Shown here: piece after piece, positions 5,759-41,098 of the stretch
Position numbering within the stretch: position 1 is the first letter of the stretch
How the letters are laid out: each line of letters starts with the position of its first letter
From: a virus
DNA length: 44,997 nt
Direction: 5' to 3' (one strand)
Virus record (IMG/VR): IMGVR_UViG_3300026078_000042
Coordinates: 1-44,997 of that record
Translations under genes and position numbers: made by a program
Notes under the pieces: generated by a model
Databases searched by the model: none
The model's input: only the letters and a program-made list of their open reading frames with translations
What the model was told of the DNA's origin: nothing

Positions 5759-5835
5759 GCCCGTTTAGCTCAGTGGTAGAGCGGACGCATTGTAGGCGAC
5801 CAGGTAGCGGGTTCGATTCCCAGCAGCGGGCTCCA
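5759..5835 (+). tRNA. tRNA-Thr (anticodon TGT), slightly degenerate
   Basis: The acceptor stem GCCCGTT (5759-5765) pairs with AGCGGGC (5825-5831). The D arm is GCTC/GAGC with loop AGTGGTA. The anticodon loop ATTGTAG (5789-5795) has U33 and anticodon TGT, read as Thr. The T loop TTCGATT follows GCGGG, and an encoded CCA is present at 5833-5835. Oddities are an A-A mismatch in the anticodon stem and a bulged A on the 3' side of the T stem, so function is likely but not certain. It may serve ACA codons. Confidence 0.75.
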
Positions 5836-28375: not shown

Positions 28376-29223
28376 GGTGCTTCGTCCGCATACTCTTTTA
28401 GTTTTACCAACCAATACGTCTCATAAACCCTTCGATACGTATCTTCCTCAGATTCATCCTTATAAGGACATCCTTTTACTTTCTTAGACTTCTCGTATTC
28501 CGCGTGCACAATCTCAATCATGAACTCTTTGTGAGCGTTCCACTGCACCACTCGGTTCTTGGCTTTCTGGAACCCCATACCCCAACATCCGGGGATATTA
28601 TCCACCCTATCCCCCATCAGGACTTGCATCCACAAAGCATCCCAGGCTTCCAGTGGGGTTACATCGAAAGATTCGTCCTTAACCCAATTGTAGTGCCTAC
28701 CGGGAATCTGGAGAAGATCTTTGTCATTTCCTACGATTATGTAGTTATCTTGCCCCAATTTACAAGCTTCTATGGATACCTCGTCCTCAGCTTCGTGGCC
28801 CGTTACTACGACACCAGAATGCGTATCACATAGATATTCACGAATATCTGCAAGGTAAATAGGCCGTACCACGCCATCACGCGAACCTTTGTAACGGGTG
28901 TGCTTCGCCAGAGAATCTCTAAAATTTCCCGAAGTAGGGGTAAGAAAAAGGCTATAATCATTGCTAGTATTTTCACGGATCTTCCTTACGAAACTATCAC
29001 ATATTGTTTTTGCTTCTTCCAGAGTCCCGACCTCCCGTCGGGACCAAGTAAAATAACCCTTCTCATCCCATTCCCTGGTTTCCTTCCAGTTCTCCGGATA
29101 CACCATATCTGGAGGTTCTGTCAAATCTAGTACCTTGGTACACAGATACTTAGTCTTCTCGACGGCAGCAGCCGCTCGGTAAGCAATGCTGTCCCCATCA
29201 ATAAGGGCTACTACTTTACTCAT
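28195..29223 (-). CDS. 5'-3' exonuclease (FEN/T7 gp6-like)
   Basis: The product is 342 aa. Acidic active-site residues are visible: LIDGDSI (8-12), HEAEDEV (143-149), VGNDKDLL (164-171), and a helix-hairpin-helix type GDRVDNIPG (204-212). These define the FEN superfamily, which removes RNA primers and resects DNA. The last 50 residues are Ser/Thr/Gln/Ala-rich, low-complexity, and overlap a zinc-finger frame, so the true end is uncertain. Overlaps the SLOG gene by 8 nt. Confidence 0.9.
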   Translation of the reverse strand: MSKVVALIDGDSIAYRAAAAVEKTKYLCTKVLDLTEPPDMVYPENWKETREWDEKGYFTWSRREVGTLEEAKTICDSFVRKIRENTSNDYSLFLTPTSGNFRDSLAKHTRYKGSRDGVVRPIYLADIREYLCDTHSGVVVTGHEAEDEVSIEACKLGQDNYIIVGNDKDLLQIPGRHYNWVKDESFDVTPLEAWDALWMQVLMGDRVDNIPGCWGMGFQKAKNRVVQWNAHKEFMIEIVHAEYEKSKKVKGCPYKDESEEDTYRRVYETYWLVKLKEYADEAPWYPKIKNKKTVVVDGKTKASGDTDTSSSARSATDSAQSKPITAQQQTNPALANGATGSE

Positions 29224-29608
29224 AAATCTCCAGTACTGGTACTTTGCGTTTCCGGGCTGTCTGCTTCATGTGGTCTGTGCCTCTACTTCCTGGGAACGCT
29301 ATTACTAAATCAGGCTTTCCTTCTTCTAGCATTTGGATATTCCTGATAATACCTGCCTTTTTACCATGCAAATCCCAGTCAGCCTTGTATACCTTGTATT
29401 GCACCCAATTTACGACTGCCCAATCCTCAGCAAAAGAATCTACTCCCCTTGCTCCTCCTAAAATCAAGAATAAGTCTGGACGAGGCATCCAAGTTCCTGC
29501 TTCCCCTCCTATATCATTAGGATATAGGGGATTAAATAGACGGGTTAGCCAGGAGTAAACATTAAGGTTATCTTTATAATCCCTTCCACCGCAGACTAAA
29601 ATTCTCAT
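29216..29608 (-). CDS. SLOG-domain (YspA/DUF2493-like) protein
   Basis: The product is 130 aa. MRILVCGGRDY at the start, GGARGVDSFAEDWA (about residues 51-64), HGKKAGIIRNIQML (about 81-94), and PDLVIAFPGSRGTDHM form the Rossmann-like SLOG pattern (the cpYpsA-related DUF2493 group). The domain binds nucleotides or nucleotide-derived signals. Start overlaps the preceding stop as ATGA. Substrate unknown. Confidence 0.85.
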   Translation of the reverse strand: MRILVCGGRDYKDNLNVYSWLTRLFNPLYPNDIGGEAGTWMPRPDLFLILGGARGVDSFAEDWAVVNWVQYKVYKADWDLHGKKAGIIRNIQMLEEGKPDLVIAFPGSRGTDHMKQTARKRKVPVLEIYE

Positions 29609-35014: not shown

Positions 35015-35189
35015 AGTCTGGCCAATAAGACGTTATTGGATCTTTATTGAAATCCAGCTCTCGATCCACCGGCCAATCATCCGCAGCTTGATCGAAATCT
35101 CCCGAGCCTGTCTCGGAAAGTTCGTCTTCCCTGAGAGACTCCAGACTTAGCTGGTTCAGGATTAGGTCGTTCTTTTTCTTGTTGTTCAT
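34995..35189 (-). CDS. Small acidic protein
   Basis: The product is 64 aa, rich in Asp and Glu, with a basic N-terminus (MNNKKKND). GAGGGA sits 8 nt upstream, a strong ribosome site. It overlaps the gene upstream by 113 nt in a different frame and the primase by 20 nt. No function assigned. Confidence 0.6.
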   Translation of the reverse strand: MNNKKKNDLILNQLSLESLREDELSETGSGDFDQAADDWPVDRELDFNKDPITSYWPDYDDTES

Positions 35190-35526
35190 ATGAGTATTCC
35201 CTCACAATTGAAAGCTTAGCAGCTTTTTCTTCTGATGTCTTCGGAGTCACGAACCAATTATACAGGAAAACCGTGTTCTGTGTCTTGGGGTTTATTCCTA
35301 TTTCGAATTTATCTACCCGATACCCTAATTTGATAAGGTGCTTCATCCACTTATCCCCACCCCCATACCCAGGGGTGTCGGAGAATTGAATGATCTTGCA
35401 CGTTCTCCCGTTCCATTTAGTCTTCTCTATGAGACTTTGTATATTGAACTGAGTGGGGTCTGAGTGTTGTACTCCTTCCATTTCGTAGATGGCGCAGCAG
35501 TGATGGGAAGCTAAAATGTTCGGCAT
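35077..35526 (-). CDS. Hypothetical protein, alternative TM-anchored form
   Basis: The preferred start is ATG 35526 (149 aa; GAGAG 6 nt upstream), which gives a mixed alpha/beta protein with a Gly-rich GYGGGDKWMKHLIKLGYRVDKFEIG centre and a disordered, Arg-rich end. The frame stays open to ATG 35655 (192 aa), adding a hydrophobic helix (about residues 5-25) and an Arg-rich stretch, which would make a membrane-anchored form. Unrecognised family. Confidence 0.5.
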   Translation of the reverse strand: MPNILASHHCCAIYEMEGVQHSDPTQFNIQSLIEKTKWNGRTCKIIQFSDTPGYGGGDKWMKHLIKLGYRVDKFEIGINPKTQNTVFLYNWFVTPKTSEEKAAKLSIVREYSYEQQEKERPNPEPAKSGVSQGRRTFRDRLGRFRSSCG

Positions 35527-35655
35527 ATTTATCTCTCTTCGACGTATTCTCCGGGCGAGGAAGCGCCTACGCAAATCCGTCACTAGAAAACCTAGTGTAC
35601 ACACCATAATTCCGATTAATAAAACCCAAAACAGGAATTTATAAAAAATATCCAT

Positions 35656-35778: not shown

Positions 35779-36408
35779 TTAGCCGGACACAGCCTTTTCA
35801 ACCACTGCGACATCACCCTCCGGGTAAGATTTCAAGGCACCCTCCGATTTCATCCTATTGAAAGTCTTCACGTAAGTAGTATTTTTATCGATGAACCGTG
35901 AGTCATAGAGGTATGACACCATTCTGGGAGGTACGATACCCCACACCTTCGAGGGCCAGAAACTACCAGCATAGGTATTATTGTTGTACATGGGAAACTC
36001 GAATACTTGAAACCCGTGTTCAGGGTGCTGTTGAAATTCCCTGATGAGAGCTTTGAAACTGGTAAACCAAGCCTGGTCCTTGCCGATAATGATAGAATCT
36101 GCGTATACCAGGTAATTGGGCAAGTAACGACCAGAGTCCGTTGGAAAATATGGACTGGTTTCCTTAAGCATCCTGTAAGTTGTATGGGTGGCACAATACC
36201 CCGAAAACTCCCGGATAAGTTGATTCTTCACTTCTTCTTTTCGCAGGAGTGCGCCCAGTTCTCCTGATGGCCAGTGATCAAACCACGAAAGACCATCATG
36301 ACTTTTCTGTAGAACAAGCTTTCCCACCAATTTCACGGAACAATTATACTCCGTGGAAGTGAACGCGAGACGAATGTAAGCTTTCGATCCATCAAAATCA
36401 AGTATCAT
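35779..36408 (-). CDS. Hypothetical protein in the amidoligase cluster
   Basis: The product is 209 aa, alpha/beta with many aromatic residues (FWPSKVWGIVPPRMVSYLYDSRF near 150-170). GAGGT 7 nt upstream and 9-nt spacing from the ATP-grasp gene place it in the same operon. No motif I recognise; an accessory or acceptor role is possible from context only. Confidence 0.6.
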   Translation of the reverse strand: MILDFDGSKAYIRLAFTSTEYNCSVKLVGKLVLQKSHDGLSWFDHWPSGELGALLRKEEVKNQLIREFSGYCATHTTYRMLKETSPYFPTDSGRYLPNYLVYADSIIIGKDQAWFTSFKALIREFQQHPEHGFQVFEFPMYNNNTYAGSFWPSKVWGIVPPRMVSYLYDSRFIDKNTTYVKTFNRMKSEGALKSYPEGDVAVVEKAVSG

Positions 36409-36417
36409 GATCTTACC

Positions 36418-37194
36418 TCAGATGATTTTACGCAGATTTTCGACGTAGAACTTCAACGATTGACCTTCCAGACCTGGGGCAGTATTCACTTCTCCCACCA
36501 CCCATTTCCCTCCTTTCCTCATAATATCGACTGCGGCGTAATCCAGTTGCAAGCAATCCATAACCTGCATTGCCAGTTTAACCGCGTGGCCATCTTCGAC
36601 AACGTTTCTGGCGAAGATCCATCCGTTATCGTAGGTACGAATGTAGTTATCGGGCTTCTCATCCAGCCCGAAATCTTCGTATCTATCTGGTCCTACTCGT
36701 TTCTTTTCCACATACATGTGGTGGACAAAGCTCAGTCCCTTGATGACATGCGTCCGGCTCTCAACACTCTTGGGGAAATTCTTAGTATATACCTTCGCAC
36801 TCGATAGCTCTGTTTCTCCCTTGAGTACAAGCTTAAGACCACTTCCACCGTGTCCGTGGAGTTGCGTGTGACAGAAGACGCTACTATTGACCAGCCATTT
36901 GACAGCTTCAGCTCTGTCCGTGGTGAACTCAAGAGTTGGAATACCTGCATCTTTGAGTATCCTGAATGTGGCCAGCTTATTGGAGGCCGTAGCTACCGCT
37001 GGGGCCTTGTTTAGAATGTGACTGAACCCGGTGAACGGAGTCGAAACTCCCCAATTCACTAGAGTTCTGTGCTTATTCCGTTGGGAATCTATGAGCTTCA
37101 TCTCTTCGGGTAATCTCAGGAGCATCCCAAGCTCCCGGCACAGTTTCCGGGGTGTGCCCCCCTTCCAGGGACTAAGCAAAATTGGCATGACCAT
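36418..37194 (-). CDS. ATP-grasp ligase
   Basis: The product is 258 aa. The ATP-grasp pattern is visible: NKLATFRILKDAGIPT (72-87), the Gly-rich loop HGHGGSGLKL (113-122), VIKGLSFVHHMYV (150-162) and the metal-binding GEVNTAPGLEG (234-244). Such enzymes activate a carboxylate with ATP and join it to an amine, like RimK or D-Ala-D-Ala ligase. GGAG lies 9 nt upstream; gap of 4 nt from the amidotransferase gene. Substrate unknown. Confidence 0.85.
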   Translation of the reverse strand: MVMPILLSPWKGGTPRKLCRELGMLLRLPEEMKLIDSQRNKHRTLVNWGVSTPFTGFSHILNKAPAVATASNKLATFRILKDAGIPTLEFTTDRAEAVKWLVNSSVFCHTQLHGHGGSGLKLVLKGETELSSAKVYTKNFPKSVESRTHVIKGLSFVHHMYVEKKRVGPDRYEDFGLDEKPDNYIRTYDNGWIFARNVVEDGHAVKLAMQVMDCLQLDYAAVDIMRKGGKWVVGEVNTAPGLEGQSLKFYVENLRKII

Positions 37195-37198
37195 AGTC

Positions 37199-38623
37199 TT
37201 ATGCTCCGTAAATATCGGCTAGTTTCTTTTCGTCTTTGGCACATAGGGGACATATCAATTGCCACTCGGTGTCTTCTGGAGGATCTTCCGGGCATCTTGC
37301 CCAGGGGTACCATTTTACCTTATCCTTGTCCAGAGACAAAATTGTTCCGTTGCATCCTACGCACCCGAGTTTAGCGATCTCTCGCCACTCTTTCAATGAA
37401 ATCGTGGTATCGTTGGGGCCAGGATACATGATCAGAGAATCTGGATCTGGAGGAGTCAATCCCAACGAGTTCGATTCTTCCTTTTTTTTCGCTTCCCCTG
37501 TTTCTTGCTGTTGCTGGGGTGGGGGAAGGTACCTCCGCGCATCTTTAGTCGCTTCGGTTGGGTTAATACGAACCTTGTAAGTGAATTTCACTAGCCCATT
37601 AACCATTTCCGAGTGGGATGCATCCACAATGCACGGAAGTGATCTACGGGTGAACTTATAAGTCTTTTCCCAATCTTCCTTGCAAACTCCGTCTATCCTG
37701 ACTTCTCCGTTATCAAGTCTGCGGATAGCCTTCACGCAACCGTGAGTAGTACTGTTACTGTACAGCACCACCTCGTTATTCTCGCAATCGACGTAAATCC
37801 GGTCCCCGGCATCAGGTAGTCCACCCGTAGCCTTCGTTCCCCCACCACTGTACACCGTATAGATCGGTTTTTTTTGCTCGTATGACTCTACGATAGGTTC
37901 AGAGAGGTTATCCTTCGTGAGATCCCATGAGTATAGCTTATATGGATCGAGCTGCCAGAAAGCCTCTGGAGTGCCTTTGGCGTGGTATGGAATGTCCAAC
38001 CTATCCAGACAGAACTGAAGGATTTCCTTCTCCGAGGCGTAGTACATCACCGTTCCATCGGGGCTCTTGGCTAGGAACAGATCCCTATTACTCTCATTGC
38101 GAGCAATGTGGAACTGCTTATCTTTCTCACTGTACCACGTGAGTACGTAATAACCCTGCAACTTCTCCAGGGTTTCCTTAGCCCCATTGACCAGAATGGA
38201 GTGAGTGACGTGGGCACTATCTACATCGTGCTTGAACCCTGCGGGAGTTAACGAGTGGTAGTTACTTACGTGCCCATTATGGGTAAGGATAACCGAATCC
38301 AGAGGATCATTGTCCTTGACATACCAGAAAGGGTGCGAATTCTCATGGTTCGGAGACCCTCCTGTCGGGGCTCGGGTGTGCCCCATGATCACACGAGACA
38401 TGGAGACATTGCTTTCTACCCAGGAATACGTCTTGGTCTGGATAAAATCCGGGGATGCCAGGCGAGATTTGACGAAATCTGGCTTGAACTTATTGCTGAT
38501 AAGTCCTACACCACACCCGCTGTATCCCCGGAGAACGGAAATAAAAAGCCCTTGAGTAATGTACTGAGGGGCTTTGGTGAACATGCCTTTCTCGGCACGA
38601 AAGGCTCCAACTAATCCACACAC
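37199..38623 (-). CDS. Class II glutamine amidotransferase with C-terminal zinc ribbon
   Basis: The product is 474 aa. It starts with GTG and begins M-Cys2-G, the nucleophile that must follow the removed start. HTR (82-84), HPF (97-99) and HNGH (115-118) are the expected glutamine-binding residues. Residues up to about 210 form the glutaminase domain. A middle linker and a C-terminal CVGC/CPLC zinc ribbon (about 420-465) replace the synthetase domain of GlmS/PurF. It likely supplies ammonia to a partner ligase. Confidence 0.88.
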   Translation of the reverse strand: MCGLVGAFRAEKGMFTKAPQYITQGLFISVLRGYSGCGVGLISNKFKPDFVKSRLASPDFIQTKTYSWVESNVSMSRVIMGHTRAPTGGSPNHENSHPFWYVKDNDPLDSVILTHNGHVSNYHSLTPAGFKHDVDSAHVTHSILVNGAKETLEKLQGYYVLTWYSEKDKQFHIARNESNRDLFLAKSPDGTVMYYASEKEILQFCLDRLDIPYHAKGTPEAFWQLDPYKLYSWDLTKDNLSEPIVESYEQKKPIYTVYSGGGTKATGGLPDAGDRIYVDCENNEVVLYSNSTTHGCVKAIRRLDNGEVRIDGVCKEDWEKTYKFTRRSLPCIVDASHSEMVNGLVKFTYKVRINPTEATKDARRYLPPPQQQQETGEAKKKEESNSLGLTPPDPDSLIMYPGPNDTTISLKEWREIAKLGCVGCNGTILSLDKDKVKWYPWARCPEDPPEDTEWQLICPLCAKDEKKLADIYGA

Positions 38624-38637
38624 GGTTCGTTATCCTT

Positions 38638-39567
38638 TTATTGAATTGCTGAAATGAAATGAAACATGGTCAAAGAACCTTTCTTAAGATCTTCTTCGAC
38701 GCTCTTTGTGTTCTTCAAGAGAAACGGAGCTTCCGCCTCGAACACGCGGTATATGAACTCCTTGGCCCCGTAAGACTTGACGTGGTGCATCAAGTCAACT
38801 ATATCCCACTGCTGCTCAATGACGTATTTCTTGATTCTCATCAAGATGTTAAGCCAAATGAGGATCTTCTCCTTTTGCATATTAACAGGTGCTTGGCGGA
38901 ATTCTGCTGTGCCAAATTGCCCCAGAGACAAGAGATTAAGACCTGCGTACTTGTGGTAGTTCTTGTTATTGTGCAATTGGCTACCAAGGGAGAGTCCGCT
39001 ATCCGTACTCCCCGTATCGGATTTCAAAATCTCTTTGTAAGGCTTCAGTATCCGGGCATACTGCAAGTAATGATGTGGATTTGCATACCACGGGATGCAA
39101 TAATTGCATCCGTCTCTATTGGCTCCCAGGAATTTGTAGAGTAAAGGTTCTACCAGGGCGTATAGAGCCGCAACCCGGTGAGCATCCCGAGGATAATTCA
39201 GTTCACTGAGATCCATGTGAACGTGCAAACTGGTCCGATACGAAGCTGTGAACCCATACGCTCTGCTAGCCGCGTCCATGGCCTCGATTGCAGATAGGAT
39301 ACGTGTGCCGGAATAGGGTTCCTTGAACGTGAACTCCATCCCGTTCTGCCTAAGCGATCCATCCACATGATACGCAAAAAGAGCTTTGACCGCCGCAACT
39401 ATCGGAGCCAGCGGATTAGGGGATAAAGGACTGTTCTGATAGGGAAATTTATCCGTGTTCTCCCACTCATATTCCAGGCCCATGTATGTCTTAGGGAGGC
39501 AAAGAAGAGGAGTATTCTGCTCCCTCTCTTCCAACCCAGACAACTTCAACAGATTTTTTACTTTCAT
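38638..39567 (-). CDS. Amidoligase_2 family (COOH-NH2 ligase)
   Basis: The product is 309 aa. MGLEYEWEN (29-37), NGMEFTFKEP (75-84), SLHVHMDLSEL (113-123) and GTAEFRQA (near 237) match the glutamine-synthetase-like Amidoligase_2 fold, with catalytic Glu/His residues. These enzymes form amide bonds between a carboxylate and an amine. Start overlaps the neighbour stop as ATGA; gap of 14 nt to the amidotransferase. Confidence 0.85.
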   Translation of the reverse strand: MKVKNLLKLSGLEEREQNTPLLCLPKTYMGLEYEWENTDKFPYQNSPLSPNPLAPIVAAVKALFAYHVDGSLRQNGMEFTFKEPYSGTRILSAIEAMDAASRAYGFTASYRTSLHVHMDLSELNYPRDAHRVAALYALVEPLLYKFLGANRDGCNYCIPWYANPHHYLQYARILKPYKEILKSDTGSTDSGLSLGSQLHNNKNYHKYAGLNLLSLGQFGTAEFRQAPVNMQKEKILIWLNILMRIKKYVIEQQWDIVDLMHHVKSYGAKEFIYRVFEAEAPFLLKNTKSVEEDLKKGSLTMFHFISAIQ

Positions 39568-40241
39568 GGTATTACTTGAACCTTATCCGGGTGTACATGG
39601 CCCAGGTCCACCAGGATTTCTTTACTGAGCGGCGTTTTGACTAGAAACTTTCTTTCAACTCCCGGGAATTTAAGCACTTCTCCTATACTGGAATTTTTGA
39701 GAAACACTTTCCTTGATTTGAAATCAATTGCGAAATCGCCCTGTGCAGCCACAGCACTGGATTCCATATCCAAGGCTTCTCCTAGAGTAGGAATAGAAAG
39801 CATTGAATAGTAACGAGGAAATGCACAGGCCATAATATTCTGTACCGTGATCTCCCCCGCTTGCGGATTCCCTAGGAATTGCACGGCCAGATTATTAGGA
39901 TTATCCGCAGATACCGAAGTAACCAAGGGATACGATTTCTTAAGGTTACGACTCATACTTGGGTACCAAAGAGCCACGCTAGTCCCGAGATTGAAAGTCT
40001 TACCATAAGGAGGCAGTACATCCAAAGATTTCCACCAATCTTTGAAGCTGAACGTCTTGGGCTTCAGTTCCCTTTGTCGGGTCAGATATTGCCCGTGTAC
40101 CGTACCCCCAATCAAACCCTCGCACATAAACAGGCGTTTCTTGGTTTCTGTCAGATTCCATAACAGAATTGTTTTTATGAAATAGTGCTCGAAATCGCCG
40201 GATTCACAATCCTTGAATTGAGCACCGGCTACTATGTTCAT
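39564..40241 (-). CDS. Hypothetical protein between two amidoligases
   Basis: The product is 225 aa, mixed alpha/beta, with basic and aromatic N-terminal half and strands near the end (KVFLKNSSIGEVLKF, ERKFLVKTPLSKEILVDLG). Both ends overlap their neighbours as ATGA, so it is almost certainly translated together with both amidoligases. No family recognised; it may be a substrate-binding partner. Confidence 0.65.
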   Translation of the reverse strand: MNIVAGAQFKDCESGDFEHYFIKTILLWNLTETKKRLFMCEGLIGGTVHGQYLTRQRELKPKTFSFKDWWKSLDVLPPYGKTFNLGTSVALWYPSMSRNLKKSYPLVTSVSADNPNNLAVQFLGNPQAGEITVQNIMACAFPRYYSMLSIPTLGEALDMESSAVAAQGDFAIDFKSRKVFLKNSSIGEVLKFPGVERKFLVKTPLSKEILVDLGHVHPDKVQVIP

Positions 40242-41098
40242 TTTGTTTGCTCTCTCTCCACAATCTTGTTCCAGTGTTCCGTGTATTCCAATACCCGGGA
40301 CCTGGCATGCGGAATTTTCTGCGGGGACTTGACCTTCAAGAACCCCTCAATTCCTGTACTATGCAAGAAATCGTGCAGTTTCAGATTGAATTTTTCTCCT
40401 CCCAGGATATCCACGGACTTGATCACATCAAGTATTCGCTTCTCCATTTGGGCAAGATATGTTTCTGGCACCTTTATCGCAGGACTCGCCCAGCTATTGT
40501 CGGGGGATCTCCACTCGACTCCGTAACTGGTCTCCCTGTATAGACCCGGATGTCCATAGAATTCCCACCTCAGAGGATCGTAACCTAAGTGACTTACGTA
40601 CTCTACGTACGCAAAACAATCGATGGCCTTGATAAACATCTTGGGATCAAGGTCCTTTGGCCACGGATTAAGGCCAATGTGTATATGGCCTCCGGCAAAC
40701 CTGCGATTCTTGAACATATTGACCTGAGGTTTTACGCGCAGACCATATGCCCAGAAATCTGCATCACATCCCAGGACGGAGGCTTGAGGAAATAGCCGAA
40801 GTTTTTTGGAGTCAAACTGGGCCGTGGCACTTGGCCAGATGGCATAGTCCTTATTCAGGACAAGAAAAGCTGTAATGATGCGATCCAATCGCTTCTTTAC
40901 TTCAACGAGAGTGTCTGCCGGGGATACGTTAAATTCCACAGCGCACCCATCCTCAAGATATCCTCCTTCAGGAGTCAGGAAGATGGGCGCCTTCTTCGCT
41001 CCTCCGAAAAGCCCGCACGCAGGTACGGGTACATCGGGATTTGACTTGTGAGTCACAAAAAATTCGGGATCAGCTCCGAATGTCACTTTCGTAGTCAT
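40238..41098 (-). CDS. phiEco32-type COOH-NH2 ligase (amidoligase type 2)
   Basis: The product is 286 aa. FGADPEFF (7-14), LEDGCAVEFNV (48-58), GGHIHIG (136-142) and YRETSYGVEWRS (187-198) match the phiEco32-like amidoligase family, distinct from the Amidoligase_2 type. Predicted glutamine-synthetase-like fold that forms amide bonds. First gene of the module, overlapping the next by ATGA. Substrates unknown. Confidence 0.88.
   Translation of the reverse strand: MTTKVTFGADPEFFVTHKSNPDVPVPACGLFGGAKKAPIFLTPEGGYLEDGCAVEFNVSPADTLVEVKKRLDRIITAFLVLNKDYAIWPSATAQFDSKKLRLFPQASVLGCDADFWAYGLRVKPQVNMFKNRRFAGGHIHIGLNPWPKDLDPKMFIKAIDCFAYVEYVSHLGYDPLRWEFYGHPGLYRETSYGVEWRSPDNSWASPAIKVPETYLAQMEKRILDVIKSVDILGGEKFNLKLHDFLHSTGIEGFLKVKSPQKIPHARSRVLEYTEHWNKIVEREQTK

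Follow-up and report, generated by a model that had tools for sequence, protein, structure and literature searches.

The window analysed here is a complete virus record of 44,997 bases (~45 kb), in which positions 35779-41098 hold a cassette of six open reading frames, all on the minus strand. Outside the cassette the window resembles a tailed phage. Genes for the large terminase, the portal and the major head protein occupy the plus strand, and the minus-strand neighbours of the cassette encode exonucleases, endonuclease I, DNA polymerase A, a DnaB-like helicase and primase. The genes of the locus, in cassette order, are as follows.

40238..41098, minus strand: COOH.NH2 ligase type 2 (GCS-like carboxylate-amine ligase), 286 aa; PHROG_3815, 8.6e-33
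39564..40241, minus strand: X, diverged member of the core family XF, 225 aa; profile match and slot
38638..39567, minus strand: Amidoligase_2 (GCS-like ligase), 309 aa; Pfam 4.8e-11, above cut-off
37199..38623, minus strand: class II glutamine amidotransferase (GATase; Ntn hydrolase) with C-terminal CxxC...CxxC, 474 aa, GTG start; GATase_6, 2.7e-14
36418..37194, minus strand: ATP-grasp ligase, RimK/alpha-L-glutamate-ligase-like, 258 aa; PHROG_2599, 1e-48; Pfam 1.7e-5
35779..36408, minus strand: Y, clade-specific sixth gene with a YNC motif, 209 aa; homologues in phages L099 and L180
35077..35655, minus strand: gene downstream of Y, outside the six-gene set, 192 aa; N-terminal hydrophobic segment and 'CC-FSD-N-W' domain

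The original prediction had described five overlapping or closely packed leftward genes plus a sixth, and the layout of six tightly packed leftward genes is confirmed: 4-nt overlaps occur at two junctions (COOH.NH2 ligase/X and X/Amidoligase_2), and the remaining gaps measure 14, 4 and 9 nt in gene order. The six-gene set is not a product of chance, because the identical order recurs in two further phages, L099 and L180, at ~28-48% identity. Promoter-like sites near the cassette were no more frequent than in shuffled sequence.

The four enzyme families first proposed for the locus (COOH.NH2 ligase, Amidoligase_2, class II GATase and ATP-grasp) were recovered by profile searches in Pfam and PHROGs. 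The COOH.NH2 ligase is assigned by its PHROG match, its Pfam score (COOH-NH2_lig) being 14 bits, under the 25-bit cut-off, and the RimK Pfam match of the ATP-grasp protein lies above the cut-off. Loss of the catalytic residues had been named as one of the observations that would speak against the module; in alignments of the window enzymes with 12-16 relatives the residues are largely conserved. Among 15 aligned sequences, the COOH.NH2 ligase has D10, E12, E55, H138, H140, R188, E195 and R197 invariant, and the alignment of Amidoligase_2 shows G30, E32, E34, E36, S71, E78, H115, H117, R151, Y207, N211, E222 and R224 invariant, so that acidic, His and Arg active-site residues are kept in both GCS-like ligases. 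The GATase keeps the N-terminal catalytic Cys (C2) and the glutamine-binding R, N-G and D (R84, N116-G117, D135), and T87 is conserved as well. Its C421, C424, C458 and C461, kept in 14 of 16 relatives, form a C-terminal CxxC...CxxC pattern consistent with a zinc-binding element. The ATP-grasp protein keeps the ATP-binding Lys (K73) and the metal-binding triad (D223, E235, N237), and has substitutions at two sites that the rest of its family conserves, R to H109 and N to T187. Its best solved relatives are RimK and the alpha-L-glutamate ligases, with which it has the ATP-grasp fold and metal-binding residues in common, although the similarity is modest (~1e-10 with the family profile). As a lone query in direct BLAST or pattern searches, the window ATP-grasp found no close match, and alignments were needed. 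By sequence, no solved structure resembled either GCS-like ligase or X.

The genes belong to a known kind of cassette, which is uncharacterised and of which the window holds a divergent version. This type has been named the 'peptidoglycan modification cassette', and superinfection exclusion has been proposed as its role (PMC5498523, PMC10580990, PMC11945000). It is present in RIO-1/PSA-HP1, phiEco32, PA11, LUZ24 and CW02 (Hardies 2013 and Iyer 2009, as cited in PMC5498523). The ATP-grasp, amidotransferase and YtfP-like (GGCT family) proteins of phage SU10 have been detected by mass spectrometry and are listed among its early gene products (PMC4281155). In the cassette literature, where Iyer 2009 and Hardies 2013 are represented through the papers citing them, we found no published experiment on, or demonstrated activity for, any cassette member. 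The window has the same four enzyme families, clustered on one strand, and the same X slot as the named cassette, with an XF protein between the two GCS-like ligases (profile P 1.1e-7). It has no C26 or GGACT gene; these are frequent companions of the cassette, for which no requirement has been published.

Relatives are found in numerous deposited phage records, 307 for the ATP-grasp protein and 300 for the COOH.NH2 ligase, and the window proteins are only ~19-36% identical to the annotated phage relatives that were aligned. The gene-order comparison confirmed that the arrangement is common to phiEco32-type and many other phages: the usual order in annotated relatives is COOH.NH2 - hypothetical protein - Amidoligase_2 - (GATase) - ATP-grasp. 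Two main orders prevail among the sampled loci (52 and 44 loci), and the order of the window, COOH.NH2-X-Amidoligase_2-GATase-ATP-grasp, is that of the 44 loci and of LUZ24-like phages, e.g., WS1160. Alcaligenes phage QDWS535 (OK172329) also has this order, together with similar helicase, polymerase, exonuclease and holin genes. However, it carries a GGCT ~4 kb from the cassette, which the window lacks, no Y homologue was found in it, and its ATP-grasp is 34% identical to that of the window. In 84,980 bacterial and archaeal species genomes, screened by a pattern search that detects only relatives matching its peptides, the COOH.NH2 ligase occurred on just 12 contigs; all came from MAGs, and most also held much of the cassette. 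The data fit a cassette that is near-exclusively viral among the collections searched.

X and Y had both been regarded as unrecognised proteins. It is true that neither matches any Pfam or PHROGs family, and as lone queries in direct BLAST and pattern searches neither gave a close match; for the 225-aa X, however, the description did not last. In relatives, the protein between the two GCS-like ligases belongs by alignment to one family, XF (phrog_11055/phrog_4877, unknown function), a member of which sits in this slot in 115 of 126 sampled pairs, taken from IMG/VR and phage loci with some contigs counted twice. When the X proteins of the window and L099 were aligned as a pair to the 111-member XF profile (hhalign), the match had a probability of 94.2, P 1.1e-7 and a score of 49.2, and covered nearly the whole length of X. 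The controls scored far lower: 100 column shuffles peaked at 18.2, eight other window/L099 gene pairs gave 9.4-14.1, and Y gave 10.0. Before the L099 homologue was added, a small XF profile had given a suggestive P of 0.0054, and X is hardly recognisable as XF without profiles. Judged by profile similarity and slot, the cassette has a fifth core family, as yet unnamed, and X is a diverged representative of it, an identification that is new here. The predicted structure of an XF representative is confident (pLDDT 92, pTM 0.88) and has no significant match among solved structures. The top entries were HEX-1, eIF5A and EF-P (E 3e-3 or worse, TM <=0.33), a predicted likeness that amounts to a hint only. 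The significant viral matches of the predicted fold are uncharacterised phage proteins, one of them from phage CW02, and they probably belong to the XF family themselves.

Apart from core and replication genes, the commonest neighbours of the cassette match Peptidase_C26 (4.5e-23) and GGACT (4.9e-22) in Pfam. One or both were present in 126 of the 132 sampled loci with all four enzymes (both in 35, C26 only in 58, GGACT only in 33, neither in 6). All copies lie on the cassette strand, at a median distance to a core gene of 147 nt for C26 and 11 nt for GGACT. When the whole records of the six loci with neither were searched, L006 gained GGACT and L050 gained C26; the other four are two fragments of 6 and 13 kb, L154 and L099. 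Both C26 and GGACT are families associated with the breakage of gamma-glutamyl amides, and these partner families, which the window itself lacks, therefore point to gamma-glutamyl chemistry in the cassette. In the raw table the two families appeared to exchange with each other (Fisher one-sided 4.9e-7; 0.0135 at 40% clustering), but the independent-pairs test on the tree was not significant. The apparent exchange mostly follows lineage, and thus interchangeability of C26 and GGACT was dropped and is not claimed.

In a tree of the four concatenated enzymes, the window, L099 and L180 group together as a clade with full support. The loci closest to this clade on the tree, 11 in number, all carry GGACT, and none has C26 in the sequence examined. 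Neither GGACT (PF06094) nor C26 (PF07722) was found in the whole window record, and both are absent from the L180 and L099 records, the latter a 25.8-kb fragment; loss of GGACT in this clade is the simplest reading. Compared with the phages of the 'peptidoglycan modification cassette', the clade thus has neither GGACT nor C26 and carries Y behind its ATP-grasp gene. It is a divergent cassette variant, a distinction that is drawn here for the first time. Neither the C26 and GGACT partners of other cassettes nor their absence from this clade had entered the original prediction.

Homologues of Y were found in L099 and L180 only. They follow immediately on the ATP-grasp gene, L180 has a paralogue in tandem, and the YNC motif is invariant among them. 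The predicted structure of Y (pLDDT 58) gave no fold match. The idea that Y might be a diverged GGACT or C26 found no support (E 2.4 and 1.1, respectively). In five sister loci, the gene right after ATP-grasp encodes a protein of 228-293 aa with a similarly placed Cys motif, and this family is homologous to that of the gene at 35077-35655 (P 2.2e-7; score 50.7 against a null maximum of 17.4). The 'CC-FSD-N-W' family has 34 members across 27 cassette loci, and the members scanned gave no significant Pfam match and no clear PHROG match. The signal of Y against this family is weak (score 21.5, reached by 0 of 200 shuffles, with a null maximum of 18.8; P 0.012), and an HMM search did not retrieve Y. 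Since this signal is weaker than that of the sister-locus family, membership of Y in this undescribed family of small proteins recurring near cassettes is probable on sequence grounds, not established. The protein encoded at 35077-35655 is possibly a distant relative of Y.

The original interpretation is supported in part, through the enzyme families, the kept catalytic residues and the shared gene order; ammonia supply by the glutaminase was its prediction. We propose that the cassette works early in infection: the two GCS-like ligases and the RimK-like ATP-grasp enzyme would use ATP to turn carboxylates into acyl phosphates and would join these to amines, giving gamma-glutamyl or peptide amides. 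As a further member of this pathway, the class II amidotransferase would either release ammonia from glutamine or cleave a gamma-glutamyl amide, and X could be a scaffold or adaptor with no catalytic role. The product would in most cassettes be finished or recycled by an enzyme that removes gamma-glutamyl groups (C26 or GGACT); in the clade of the window, this step may be missing or performed by another protein, possibly Y. The substrate would be a cell-envelope peptide, e.g., a peptidoglycan precursor, changed to the benefit of the phage, for instance by excluding later phages. Such a peptide would be the likeliest target, a choice that follows the literature hypothesis only. Taken as a whole, this model of amide pathway, X scaffold and envelope-peptide substrate stands, in our estimate, at about an even chance of being right. 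A variant in which X is the carrier or substrate of a gamma-glutamyl protecting-group amide pathway, and Y an unrelated enzyme replacing the removal step in the clade of the window, seems to us very improbable.

Several other activities could be imagined for these genes. The cassette may modify a host or phage protein, e.g., by attaching glutamate or a different amino acid to it; X would then be the adaptor or the modified substrate. RimK modifies ribosomal protein S6, and RimK and the alpha-L-glutamate ligases are the best solved relatives of the ATP-grasp enzyme; EF-P and eIF5A are modified proteins themselves, and it is their barrels and that of HEX-1 that the predicted fold of X weakly recalls. 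That likeness is not significant, however (best E 3e-3, TM <=0.33), no acceptor lysine is invariant in the XF alignments, and two GCS-like ligases with C26/GGACT partners better fit metabolite or peptide chemistry, so that we consider protein modification unlikely, although the strongest of the alternatives. Such chemistry could also end in a free small molecule that blocks a host process or defence, namely a peptide or amine in amidated or gamma-glutamyl form, with no polymer being decorated. Linked ligases followed by gamma-glutamyl removal resemble the gamma-glutamyl protection schemes of butirosin, ergothioneine and putrescine breakdown, and C26 and GGACT adjoin the cassette. Against this product, the clade of the window lacks the removal enzymes and, next to the cassette, neither a transporter nor a resistance gene was noticed; it comes second among the alternatives and is also unlikely.

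Attachment of an amino acid to modified DNA bases is much less plausible than either. Phage DNA bases bearing amino acids do exist, the cassette adjoins replication genes in many phages and thymidylate synthase lies nearby in a few relatives, but no base-modification gene was recognised among the ~30 window ORFs searched and the literature treats the cassette as cell-wall related. Least credible of all is degeneration of the cassette in the clade of the window, with GGACT lost, X diverged to the edge of recognisability, two ATP-grasp positions changed and the function reduced or gone, since all six frames are open in each of three phages with <=46% mutual identity over the concatenated enzymes and the other catalytic residues are kept, which calls for long-term selection.

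The preferred reading, an amide-forming pathway acting on an envelope peptide, concerns a cassette found in hundreds of phages, whose hosts include Pseudomonas, Escherichia and Vibrio. Once X is counted as a core partner and C26/GGACT as companions that are almost always present, it becomes a concrete chemical hypothesis with a defined gene set, and the clade of the window offers a natural test of the need for the gamma-glutamyl-removing step.

The 225-aa protein X lies between the two GCS-like ligases of the amidoligase cassette. Its homologues from the two other loci of the window's clade (L099:5084-6085 and L180:6685-7590) are longer at the C-terminus by about 75-110 residues, and this extension is absent from the window X. 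At L019, L024, L032, L062, L064, L069, L072 and L085 the cassette is arranged differently: its Amidoligase_2 is large (about 560-600 aa), and X was not detected in the slot between the ligases. In L180, the clade-specific gene Y is immediately followed by its tandem paralogue (L180:11598-12155). L154, a 42.6-kb record placed outside the window's clade, contains the cassette and two ATP-grasp genes, and the frequent companions Peptidase_C26 and GGACT are both missing from it.

The middle region (about residues 240-410) of the window class II GATase (37199-38623) matched no Pfam family, and a conserved CxxC...CxxC motif is located at the enzyme's C-terminal end (residues 421-461). Two other window genes were recorded:

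5759-5835, single tRNA-Thr gene, immediately upstream of the large terminase gene
29216-29608, YAcAr/SLOG-family protein (Pfam 7.8e-16), amid replication genes

A CC...FSD...N...W pattern is shared by an undescribed small-protein family, of which the following members are examples:

Window 35077-35655 (-), next gene downstream of Y
L099:3704-4099
L022:13394-13783
L023:9844-10607
L092:7773-8183

Further members exist beyond these; the family recurs in the vicinity of amidoligase cassettes, with two or three copies at some loci.
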